Source: Streptomyces wedmorensis | GTDB taxonomy: Bacteria; Actinomycetota; Actinomycetes; Streptomycetales; Streptomycetaceae | Reading direction: 5' to 3' | Assembly: GCF_000716445.1 (NCBI RefSeq) | Contig: NZ_JNWK01000005.1 | Coordinates: 62,001 to 126,000 of the forward strand | Length of the DNA stretch: 64,000 nucleotides | Shown: in pieces, positions 12,361 to 31,102 of the stretch | How the letters are laid out: the number at the start of each line of letters is the position of its first letter | Position numbering within the stretch: position 1 is the first letter of the stretch | The notes under the pieces: generated by a model | The model's database searches: none | Told to the model about the DNA's origin: nothing | The model's input: the letters and a program-made list of their open reading frames with translations, nothing else | Made by a program: the position numbers and the translations under genes

Positions 12361-12570
12361 TCAGGCCTGCCGGGCGACGAGGCTCGCGGGGCGCAGGTCG
12401 GTCCAGTGGGACTCGACGTACGCCAGGCAGGCGTCGCGGGTGTCCTCGCCGAAGACGGTCCGCCAGCCGGCGGGCACGGCGGCGAAGGAGGGCCACAGCG
12501 AGTGCTGGTTCTCCTCGTTGGCCAGCGCCAGGAAACGGCCCTGGGGGTCCTCGAAGGGGTTGGTCGTCAT
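12361..12570 (-). CDS. MbtH-family NRPS chaperone
   Basis: A 69-residue MbtH-like protein with all family hallmarks: NEENQHSLWPSF, VPAGWRTVF, and the C-terminal HWTDLRPASL. MbtH proteins bind adenylation domains and are required for their folding or activity. Its ATG overlaps the NRPS stop codon (ATGA), so it is translated together with the 4,868-residue synthetase it presumably serves. The length is normal. Confidence 0.96.
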   Translation of the reverse strand: MTTNPFEDPQGRFLALANEENQHSLWPSFAAVPAGWRTVFGEDTRDACLAYVESHWTDLRPASLVARQA

Positions 12571-15500
12571 GCGTTCTCACTCCTCGTGGAAGGGACGGGG
12601 AACAGCGCGGAGAGCGGCTGCCCGGGATCGGCCGCCACCGTGCGCAGCAGGGCCTGGAGTTCGTCGGCGAGCCGGCGGGCCTTCGCCTCGCCGAGCCGCC
12701 CGGTCGCGTGGATCAGCGCGCAGTGCACGGCTCCCTCGCCGCGCGGCTCGTGGAAGCTCAGCGTGAGCTCAGCCCGTGCAGAGCCGGTCGGGACGGCCTG
12801 GAGGGCGCCCACACCACCCTCCAGCGGGCCGAGGTCCGCCTGCTCGTGGTGGATCACCATCACCTGGGGTCCGTCGGGCCGCAATCCGGCGGCCCGGACG
12901 ACCTCTTCGAAGGGGACGTCCTGCCGGTCGAGGGCGCTCAGCGTGGTCTCCCTCACCCGGGCCAGGAGTTCGGTGAAGCTCGGGTCGCCCGCCGTGTCGG
13001 TGCGCAGCAGGACGGTGTTGAGGAAGCAGCCGACGAGATCGGCGAGCCGGTCGTCGGTGCGGCCGGCGACCATCGTGCCGACCGGCAGGTCCGTGCCCGC
13101 CCCGTGGGCGGTCAGGAGCGCCGCGAGTGCCGCGTGGAGGACCATGAACATGCTGGTGCCGGTCGTCCCGGCGAGCCGGTCCACGGCCGCGTGCAGTTCC
13201 TCGTCGAGGACGAACCCGACGTGCCCGGCGGCCTGGCGGACGCCCCGGGAGGCGGCGTCGGGGTCCGGCGCGTCGGCGGGCAGCGCGAGGTCGCGCGGGG
13301 CGCCCTGCAGCGTCCTGCGCCAGTAGGCCAGTTGGCGGCCGCCCCGGCTTTCCGGGTCGGTGGGGTCGCCGAGGACCTCGTGGGCCCAGCGGGTGTAGTC
13401 GGCGTACGTCACCGGGAGCGGCGGCCAGTCGGGGGTCCGGCCGGCCGTGCGGGCGCCGTAGGCGGTGGTGAGGTCGCGGAGCAGCGGGACCACCGACCAT
13501 TCGTCGACGGCCAGGTAGTGCGCGGTCAGGAGCACCGCCTGGGTCCCGTCCGCGCCGGTGAGGAGCCGGACGCGCAGCGGGGCCTCCCGTTCCAGGTCGG
13601 GCGCTCCCCCGGCGAGTTCGGCCACCCTGGCGTCGACGTCCTCGCACGACTCCACGGCGAGGGCCGGGGGTGCGGCGGGCCGCGGTACCGGCCTGCCGTC
13701 GTGCTCGGCGAACGTCGTGCGCAGCGGTTCGTGGCGGTCGGTCACGTCGGCGAGCGCCGCCGCGAGGGCCCCGGCGTCGAGTCCGCCGGGCGAGCGCAGC
13801 ACCAGCGCGTGGTCGAAGCCGGGCCGGCGCCGGTACGCCTGCCACTGCCCGCGCTGTACGGGCGCCGCCGGTGCGGCGTCCCCGCCGCCCGGCGCGTCGC
13901 CCGGCCGCAGGACGGGTCGTGCGGCGGCCGCTCCGTCGAGCTTGCCGGCGATGCCGGCGACGGTGAGCGCGTCGAAGACGTCCCGGATGGTCAGTTCGAC
14001 GCCGAACTCGGTCCGGATCCGGCCGAGCAGCCGCATCGAGGCCATCGAGTGGCCGCCGAGCGCGAAGAAGCTGTCGTGCACGCCGACGTCGTCCAGCTTG
14101 AGGATCTCGCGGAACAGCCCGGCGATCCGGGCCTGTGCCGCCGTCGCCGGCCGCGCGTCCCCGGTCATCCCGGACCAGTCGGGGGCGGGCAGCGCCGCGC
14201 GGTCCAGCTTGCCGTTGGGCGTCAGCGGCAGCGGTCCGTCGAGGGGGACGACGAGCGCGGGGACCATGTACTCGGGCAACCGTGCGGCGACGTGGGCGCG
14301 CAGTTCCCGCGGGTCGGGCTCCGGCGGCGCGCCAGGCCCCGTCTCGGGGACGGCGTAGCCGACGAGGCGGACGATGTCGCCGTCGCGGTCGGGCAGGACC
14401 GCGGCCTGCGCGACCGACGGGTGGGCGGCGAGCGCGGCCTCGATCTCGCCGAGTTCGATGCGGAAGCCGCGGATCTTCACCTGGGTGTCGACCCGGCCGA
14501 GGAAGTCGAGGTTCCCGTCGGCGCGCCAGCGGGCGCGGTCACCGGTGCGGTACATCCGGCTGCCGGGCGCGCCGAACGGGTCGGCGACGAAGCGTTCCGA
14601 GCTGAGCCCCGGCTGTCCGAGGTAGCCCCGGGCGAGGCCGCGGCCGGCCACGTACAGCTCGCCGATGACGCCGGGCGGGACGGGCGTCAGGTGCTCGTCG
14701 AGGACGTAGCAGCGGGTGTTGGGGTCGGGGCGGCCGATCGGGACGCGGCCGGGGGTGCGGCCGGTGTGCTCGCGGGCCGGCCACAGGGTCGAGTTGACCG
14801 TCGCCTCGGTGAGTCCGTACGCGCAGATCAGGTGCGCGGTGGCGCCGAACCGTTCGAAGAGGTCCGGCGGCACGGTCTCGGTGCCGACCAGCACGGTGGA
14901 GCCTTCGGGGAGCGCGCAGCCCGGGGGCAGCGCCGACACCAGCGACGGCGGCAGGATCATGTGGGTGATCCGCTGGTCCGCGAGGAAGTCGGTGAGCGCC
15001 GGTCCCGCGACCCTGGCCTCGTCGGTGACGAGGACGAGCCGGCCGCCGTGGCAGAGGGCCATGGCCAGTTCGAAGGCGAAGACGTCGAAGCCGATGGACG
15101 CGAACTGGAGGACCCGGCTGTCGGGTTGGAGTCCCATCCGGTCGACGGCCGTGGCGACCAGGCTGGCGATGCCCTCGTGCGGGACGACGACCCCCTTGGG
15201 GCGGCCGGTCGAGCCGGAGGTGTAGATCACGTACGCGGCCTGGTCGAGGCCGACCGGTCCGGCGGCCGGGGGCGCCTCGGGCAGCGCGTCCAGCTCGGCT
15301 TCGGTGTCCGGCGCGTCGAGCAGGACGACGGGCACGCCCGGGACGTCCGGGATCTTGCCGGCGACGGGCTCCGTGCCGACCACGACGGCCGTGCCGGAGT
15401 TCTCGATCATGTAGGTGAGCCGGTCGCCGGGGTGGACGAGGTCGAGCGGCAGGAACGCGGCGCCCAGCCCCATCGCGGCGAGCACGGTGGCGACCGTGTC

Positions 15501-30115: not shown

Positions 30116-30154
30116 CTTGGCGCCAATCCCACCCCCCTTCCGAGGAGGAAGCCC

Positions 30155-31102
30155 ATGCGGGTCGTCATGTTCGGTTATCAGACCTGGGGCCATCGCACCC
30201 TCCGAGCGCTCCTGGACTCCGAACACGACGTCGTCATGGTCGTGACGCACCCCAGGAGCGAGCACGCCTACGAGAAGATCTGGAGCGACTCCGTCGCCGA
30301 CCTGGCCGCGGAACACGACGTCCCCGTCGTCATCCGCAACCGGCCCGACGACGAGGAGCTGTTCGCCCTCCTCAAGGAGGCCGATCCGGACATCATCGTG
30401 GCCAACAACTGGCGTACGTGGATCCCGCCGAGGATCTACACGCTGCCCCGCCACGGCACGCTCAACGTCCACGACTCACTGCTGCCCAAGTACGCCGGCT
30501 TCTCGCCGCTGATCTGGGCGCTGATCAACGGCGAGACCGAAGTGGGCGTGACGGCCCACATGATGGACGAGGTGCTCGACGCCGGCGACATCGTCCGGCA
30601 GCGGGCGGTCGCCGTCGGACCCACCGACACGGCGACCGACCTCTTCCACAAGACGGTCGACCTCATCGCCCCCGTCACGATCGGCGCCCTCGACCTGATC
30701 GCCTCCGGACGGACCGACTTCACCCCGCAGGACAGGTCGCAGGCCAGCTTCTTCCACAAGCGCGCCGAAGAGGACATCCGGATCGACTGGAACTGGCCGG
30801 CCGACGTCCTGGAACGCCTGGTCCGCGCCCAGTCGGCGCCGTACCCGGCGGCCTTCACCTACCACCGCGGCAAGCGCCTCGAGGTGCTCTCCGCCGTCGT
30901 CTCGACGGGCCGTTACGGAGGCACGCCCGGACGCGTCTTCTACCGCGAGGGGGACGGCGTCGTGATCGTCGCCGGAGCGGACGCCCGCACCGGCCGCAAC
31001 CACGGCCTCGCCCTCACCCGGGTACGGACCGAGGACGGGCGCGAACTCCCCGCGGCCGAGTACTTCACTTCCATGGGCGGCTACCTCACCGGCCGCCCCT
31101 GA
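30155..31102 (+). CDS. N5-hydroxyornithine formyltransferase (CchA-like)
   Basis: A 315-residue protein of the methionyl-tRNA formyltransferase superfamily. The catalytic region shows the Asn and His of LNVHDSLLPKYAGFSP and the Asp of AHMMDEVLDAGDIV; a C-terminal OB-like domain follows. In hydroxamate siderophore loci such enzymes transfer a formyl group from N10-formyltetrahydrofolate to the hydroxylated side-chain nitrogen of ornithine, giving N5-formyl-N5-hydroxyornithine for two of the NRPS modules. GAGGAGGAAG precedes the ATG. It is divergent from the monooxygenase across two iron boxes and is followed after 17 bp by the dimethylargininase-like gene. Confidence 0.92.
   Translation: MRVVMFGYQTWGHRTLRALLDSEHDVVMVVTHPRSEHAYEKIWSDSVADLAAEHDVPVVIRNRPDDEELFALLKEADPDIIVANNWRTWIPPRIYTLPRHGTLNVHDSLLPKYAGFSPLIWALINGETEVGVTAHMMDEVLDAGDIVRQRAVAVGPTDTATDLFHKTVDLIAPVTIGALDLIASGRTDFTPQDRSQASFFHKRAEEDIRIDWNWPADVLERLVRAQSAPYPAAFTYHRGKRLEVLSAVVSTGRYGGTPGRVFYREGDGVVIVAGADARTGRNHGLALTRVRTEDGRELPAAEYFTSMGGYLTGRP

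Follow-up and report, generated by a model that had tools for sequence, protein, structure and literature searches.

Streptomyces venezuelae has been reported to produce the siderophore foroxymithine, with a tentatively assigned cluster and mutants (PMC8788739, PMC9769785, PMC11005364). In these papers, the cluster appears as biosynthetic gene cluster 29 (PMC8788739) and as RS35125-35150 (PMC9769785), the latter paper calling the match between cluster and product tentative. Here, we analyzed a window of 64,000 nucleotides from Streptomyces wedmorensis (contig NZ_JNWK01000005.1, positions 62,001 to 126,000; coordinates below are those of the window), which encodes a tetramodular nonribosomal peptide synthetase (NRPS) of condensation (C), adenylation (A), and thiolation (T) domains. 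Two synthetases labeled S. venezuelae (P0091 and P0109) are 84% identical to this NRPS over the compared residues 3349-4868. At this level of comparison they share its module order, its A-domain pockets as far as these were read, and its C-domain motifs. The S. wedmorensis locus appears to differ from the S. venezuelae system in an arginine-dihydrolase-like gene between the formyltransferase and regulator genes and in a minisatellite insert in C1. Our main observation concerns C3, the C domain preceding the module that reads as N5-hydroxyornithine (hOrn), in which a leucine occupies the position of the catalytic histidine. The synthetase features discussed first are as follows.

12567..27173, minus strand: tetramodular NRPS of 4868 amino acids, C1-A1-T1-C2-A2-T2-C3-A3-T3-C4-A4-T4-C5
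12624..13883, minus strand: C5, terminal C domain, motif AHYLAVDEWS, with Tyr at the catalytic His position
19074..20336, minus strand: C3, C domain before the hOrn module, motif THHLILWDGWS, with Leu at the catalytic His position
25626..26888, minus strand: C1, starter-type C domain, aligned from residue 97 on
26759..27024, minus strand: 15-bp minisatellite, in frame within C1, encoding about 88 extra residues

For comparison, we used 61 related loci from a scan of named genome contigs (80 of 240 stretches, a sample and not the total), of which 57 are from Streptomyces and one each from Salinispora, Longimycelium, Prauserella, and Pseudonocardia, together with the homologous proteins listed (120 of 1060 and 120 of 1037). 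The terminal C domain was matched at an E value of 1e-120 or better in 22 of 295 Streptomyces species genomes, that of S. wedmorensis included.

In the NRPS, Pfam matched AMP-binding and PP-binding four times each and Condensation five times, and it reported no thioesterase; none of the five C-like domains was recognized as an epimerization (E) domain by Pfam or in a hidden Markov model (HMM) alignment. The A-domain codes, taken by eye from the translation with the final K added by convention, are DVWILVAVNK (A1), DVWHFSLVDK (A2), DMENLGLINK (A3), and DVFIVVAVNK (A4). As a preliminary description of this DNA had proposed, the A2 code points to Ser and the A3 code to hOrn, and a third pocket identical to A3 occurs in a locus of the coelichelin-synthetase type (L136). 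We take the A2 code to be that of EntF and the A3 code to be that of CchH module 3. The common pocket claimed for modules 1 and 4 was also borne out: A1 and A4 are 62% identical, and the other A-domain pairs 49-51%. We placed A1 and A4 in a quick-method tree with a total of 66 A domains, where they formed sister clades (Shimodaira-Hasegawa-like approximate likelihood ratio test, 99) apart from the sampled Ser, hOrn, and other domains; their neighbors were the DVWILGATN domains that open the synthetases of related lines. Formyl-hOrn domains of the coelichelin type (DINYWGGIG) did not group with A1 and A4, with a long-branch warning at that point. Since the two pocket types fall in different parts of the tree, the monomer of A1 and A4 may be recognized by two unrelated A-domain lineages. 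The pockets of an erythrochelin-like line (L127), DINYWGGIG at position 1 and the DVFI type at position 4, fit equal substrates for both types.

Together, the A1/A4 tree, the matching S. venezuelae-labeled synthetases, and the lack of a visible E domain support the predicted product acetyl-hfOrn-Ser-hOrn-hfOrn, where hfOrn is formyl-hOrn. The formula given for it, C22H37N7O11, yields a computed M+H of 576.262, in agreement with the m/z of 576.26 stated beforehand, and a ferric ion computed at 629.174. The lack of a visible E domain fits an all-L product, which we take foroxymithine to be. From these sequence comparisons, the product of the locus is very probably of the foroxymithine type, and as a siderophore locus it is of a known kind, an orthologue of the known foroxymithine cluster.

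A congener in place of foroxymithine itself, for instance one without an acetyl cap or with another N5-modified ornithine loaded by A1 or A4, appears unlikely. Such a product would be compatible with the finding that no acetyltransferase occurs among the scanned genes, a subset of the genes in the window, with A1 and A4 pockets unlike the known formyl-hOrn pocket DINYWGGIG, and with the strain-specific insert in C1. However, the A1 and A4 pockets recur in the synthetases labeled with the name of a reported foroxymithine producer, and, as in 55 of the 61 related loci, a formyltransferase gene lies beside the hydroxylase gene, the six without it being five at contig ends and the Pseudonocardia locus. 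The arrangement with hydroxylase and formyltransferase is kept in the related loci, in synteny with other named Streptomyces loci, and is therefore not a matter of chance.

The preliminary description also likened the locus to that of erythrochelin, whose synthetase we take to be tetramodular with a terminal C domain, to carry E domains in its first two modules, and to yield D-residues at positions 1 and 2 and acetyl side chains. The likeness holds for the four modules and the terminal C domain, but the S. wedmorensis NRPS shows no E domain among its five C-like domains and a formyltransferase gene adjoins the hydroxylase gene; we therefore rejected this identity as highly improbable. The erythrochelin-like line L127 likewise shares four modules, a His-less C domain before hOrn, and a terminal HY-type C domain, but has E-type domains following its first two modules and DINYWGGIG as its first pocket. 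A second chemotype, found in 10 of the 61 loci (L043, L050, L052, L055, L057, L061-L064, and L069), has the second pocket DP(L/Q)DFGVIQ; L043, L050, and a further such locus contain an E-type domain on direct reading, and length implies one in the others. This pocket and the E-type domain point to a different, probably D-configured second residue. These loci, one from Salinispora pacifica (L043) and nine from Streptomyces, which we call salinichelin-like by inference, share the A1, A3, and A4 pockets, the His-less C3, and the terminal C domain, but differ in A2 and, where read, in the E domain after module 2. We thus rejected a salinichelin-like identity for the S. wedmorensis locus, given its Ser-coded A2 and the lack of a visible E domain. 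The NRPS is also distinct from the coelichelin synthetases, having four modules and a first pocket other than DINYWGGIGK. The coelichelin-type L136, identified from its architecture, has an hOrn module with a His-less C domain (YHLLLWDGW) but differs in its three modules, E domains, other formyl-hOrn pocket, and lack of a terminal C domain.

We then compared C3 with canonical C domains. Its motif reads THHLILWDGWS, compared with TLHHIVADGWS in C2, so that D-4, the position of the second and catalytic His of HHxxxDG, is Leu. HMM, MAFFT, and PDB alignments, the last against solved C domains, agree on this placement without gaps. C3 thus lacks the second His by which canonical LCL domains are recognized. 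Its predicted model nevertheless shows an intact condensation fold (predicted local distance difference test score 89.8), with C domains of tyrocidine synthetase, surfactin synthetase, and PvdL as best PDB matches.

To place this substitution, we used a census of 1680 distinct readable C domains from 208 proteins and the loci collected. His was absent at D-4 in 205 of the 209 distinct C domains that feed an hOrn-coded A domain (186 Leu, 15 Val, and 4 Phe), and 204 of the 209 carried Trp at D-1. By comparison, 1152 of 1154 distinct C domains feeding other A domains kept the His, and two did not. After clustering at 70% identity, 19 of 21 hOrn-feeding representatives were His-less versus 2 of 242 others (Fisher 1e-24, a value not to be taken at face value because the His-less domains share descent). 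A one-residue insertion shifting the His of C3 was disfavored by the three gap-free alignments and by the 19 of 209 hOrn-feeding C domains that lack His throughout D-6 to D-4.

Because a C3-A3 query might favor His-less domains, the search was repeated with A3 alone, which listed 84 places. About 73 of these were read, and 11 at 49-58% identity stayed unread or partial. From the 45 hOrn-coded A domains, L196 and L142 were dropped for want of a readable C domain. A His-less C domain preceded 38 of the remaining 43, and all 16 C domains preceding other A codes in the same fetch had the His. The five exceptions comprise four fuscachelin-like loci and one heterobactin-like line, in which Gly and hOrn are followed by a GYSFG thioesterase-like motif. 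The fuscachelin-like loci (L123, L124, L138, and L140, identified from the order Gly, Gly, Ser, hOrn) share the hOrn pocket but keep the His in the C domain before it (FHHIVMDGW). We assume that the hOrn of fuscachelin and heterobactin is linked through its α-amine and that of foroxymithine, erythrochelin, and coelichelin through N5. If these linkages hold, the His tracks the linkage and not the substrate. Position at the protein end was rejected as the whole explanation of His retention, as the hOrn module of the coelichelin type stands last in its protein and is yet His-less.

For C3 itself, the assignment follows from collinearity. In foroxymithine, Ser-CO-N(OH) forms the third hydroxamate, which would require C3 to acylate the side-chain hydroxylamine, and because the α-amine and carboxyl of hOrn both end in the diketopiperazine, Ser would be joined to N5. 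We consider it probable that C3 is the hydroxamate-forming domain, and likely, though with a little less assurance, that this role and a foroxymithine-type product both hold. In the literature searched, which included few subscription papers, we found no description of a His-less hydroxamate-forming C subtype, which is weak evidence of novelty. A 2026 paper on metallophore mining detects peptidic hydroxamates via the monooxygenase and names VibH-like and tandem Cy as C subtypes; its accessible part names no hydroxamate-forming subtype (PMC12971057).

The alternative that inherited drift removed the His of C3 in an otherwise plain foroxymithine locus, through one loss in the clade, with either another residue or none required in its place and with hydroxylamine selectivity arising from the shape of the pocket and from A3 and T3 alone, is a substantial possibility, although we would not put it at even chances. 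Of the His-less representatives, 19 in all, 18 fell into one clade of the C-domain tree (support 100/99), whose sister group is the fuscachelin-like pair with His (93/90), so that the trait follows descent as well as linkage. Most His-less members also retain a His at D-5, as drift would allow. Against drift, Leu, Val, or Phe stands in place of the His even in clade members that share as little as 37-41% identity with C3, and no reversion was seen inside the clade. A C domain outside the main His-less clade (L128:11325-12629, SELILLDGWS) likewise precedes an hOrn module and is possibly a second, independent loss, a single origin not being rejected (p 0.24).

The proposal that the missing His has a function must also be set against several points that weigh on the other side. 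The tree allows one or two loss events only, and the large His-less counts are therefore not independent. A His remains within D-6 to D-4 in 190 of the 209 hOrn-feeding C domains, mostly at D-5, and could still act. The argument from linkage depends on the hOrn linkages assumed above for coelichelin, fuscachelin, and heterobactin. Among the 107 terminal C domains discussed below, three keep HHLAVDE and one HHLVIDG. Finally, the roughly 88 additional residues in C1 are of low complexity and could impair initiation. Weighing these, we place a contribution of His loss to nucleophile selectivity just short of an even chance.

A related substitution was noticed in C5, whose motif HYLAVDEW carries Tyr at the position of the catalytic His. 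We compared 107 terminal C domains of proteins that carry an A4-type code: D-4 was Tyr in 102, Trp in one, and His in four, and the ten Tyr representatives formed one clade (100/100). Because closure of the diketopiperazine ring is intramolecular, C5 may not need a base. At the other end of the protein, C1 grouped in the C-domain tree with C domains from the very start of other NRPSs, in keeping with a starter type. Its minisatellite, with a 15-bp unit, comprises 9.7 copies at 26759-26904 and continues in diverged repeats; it was not seen in any of the 50 further loci and 56 further proteins measurable in that stretch. Among the measured relatives, L041 has a different and smaller length excess there.

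Based on these data, we propose the following biosynthesis. Ornithine, perhaps partly derived from arginine through the dihydrolase, would be N5-hydroxylated, and part of it then formylated, presumably before loading. A1 and A4 would load formyl-hOrn, A2 Ser, and A3 free hOrn. C1 would probably cap the first residue with acetyl, and C2 and C4 would form ordinary α-amide bonds. C3 would acylate the N5-hydroxylamine of hOrn with Ser, leaving the α-amine free for ring closure. At neutral pH, a hydroxylamine is largely unprotonated and an α-amine protonated. Loss of the base in C3 would then favor the hydroxylamine, which needs none, whereas the α-ammonium would stay unactivated without one. C5, with its Tyr, would hold the tetrapeptidyl thioester while six-membered ring formation by the free α-amine sets the product free. 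The result would be foroxymithine or a close congener, closed by a diketopiperazine and offering three hydroxamates for iron. In its full form, our proposal is tentative, and we hold it at somewhat below an even chance: that the His-less motif [HRQE][LVF]xxWDGWS, or near variants of it, marks a dedicated subtype for hydroxamate bonds, in which loss of the base steers acylation to the hydroxylamine; that the motif alone predicts side-chain versus α linkage of hOrn; and that the His-to-Tyr change in C5 marks base-free diketopiperazine release.

With the genes surrounding the NRPS, the hydroxamate siderophore locus looks complete. The preliminary description had placed it at 12361-31102, which runs from the MbtH gene to the end of the formyltransferase gene, but the functional locus is wider, at about 7155-32652.

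7155..8297, minus strand: FecCD-type iron-siderophore permease (Pfam FecCD; NCBIfam iron-siderophore permease models), present in 52 of the 61 related loci
8313-8331 and 8427-8445: two iron-box-like sites between the permease and exporter genes
8476..10173, plus strand: ATP-binding cassette (ABC) exporter half 1 (Pfam ABC_membrane, ABC_tran)
10170..12053, plus strand: ABC exporter half 2 (Pfam ABC_membrane, ABC_tran)
12361..12570, minus strand: MbtH-like protein (Pfam MbtH), overlapping the end of the NRPS gene
27253..28329, minus strand: iron-siderophore binding lipoprotein (Pfam Peripla_BP_2), between the hydroxylase and NRPS genes
28452..29909, minus strand: L-ornithine N5-monooxygenase (Pfam Lys_Orn_oxgnase; PDB matches to MbtG, KtzI, and ornithine 5-monooxygenase), its start codon position inferred from sequence
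29992-30010 and 30097-30115: two iron-box-like sites in the divergent promoter between the hydroxylase and formyltransferase genes
30155..31102, plus strand: formyltransferase (Pfam Formyl_trans_N and Formyl_trans_C; PDB matches)
31120..31932, plus strand: arginine-dihydrolase-like protein (PDB matches to Sll1336 and Alr4995; Pfam DDAH_eukar), possibly supplying ornithine
32014..32652, plus strand: MarR-like regulator (weak Pfam MarR_2/HTH_27 matches)

Pfam and PDB matches confirmed the NRPS, MbtH, hydroxylase, and formyltransferase domains, so the siderophore locus first sighted by the preliminary description is real, and our analysis supports that description in substance. Its statement that the operon supplies both hydroxylase and formyltransferase was right as to the presence of the two genes, but the formyltransferase gene is divergent and lies outside the NRPS operon. 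The iron-box-like sites total four, two per divergent promoter. Identical scoring found one or more in 57 of the 61 related loci, a distribution that suggests iron control.

The arginine-dihydrolase-like gene is not a core part of such loci, being found between the formyltransferase and regulator genes in only 3 of the 61 named loci; copies in siderophore loci are those of L014, L016, L033, L162, and L173. In an alignment, the Cys and Asn that are altered in the PDB variants 6jv1 and 6juz are conserved in the protein, as expected for an arginine dihydrolase of the ArgZ/AgrE N-terminal type, and judging from such comparisons it could supply ornithine. A precedent is KasD of the kasichelin cluster, which is reported to share 80% identity with the ornithine-forming arginine dihydrolase Lon22; both are likewise arginine-to-ornithine enzymes encoded in NRPS clusters, but in other clusters with other products, and we liken them by description (PMC12305651). 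The S. wedmorensis genome holds a second arginine-dihydrolase-like copy elsewhere, 67% identical, and at least one match occurs in 285 of 295 Streptomyces genomes. A copy at least 84% identical was present in 12 other Streptomyces genomes, in 10 of them beside a formyltransferase gene and in 2 within such a siderophore locus. In L163, L164, and L166-L171, the formyltransferase-arginine dihydrolase pair stands without siderophore genes nearby. An amidohydrolase gene lies near the arginine dihydrolase gene in all four loci scanned for it (L164, L165, L169, and L171), suggesting that the pair may also serve something else.

Beyond the locus, a P450 gene in the window (34787-36169) has a below-cut-off NCBIfam match to CYP152 fatty-acid peroxygenase. 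Elsewhere in the same genome, three IucA/IucC-type synthetase matches (C27:15492-18881 and C44:120331-121080) make further, NRPS-independent siderophores of S. wedmorensis likely.

The locus itself adds one orthologue to those of an already known cluster, and the interest lies in the His-less C-domain subtype. If our proposal is true, it would provide a sequence rule for which nitrogen of hOrn is acylated, something now guessed in genome mining, and a simple chemical reason behind hydroxamate versus α linkage.

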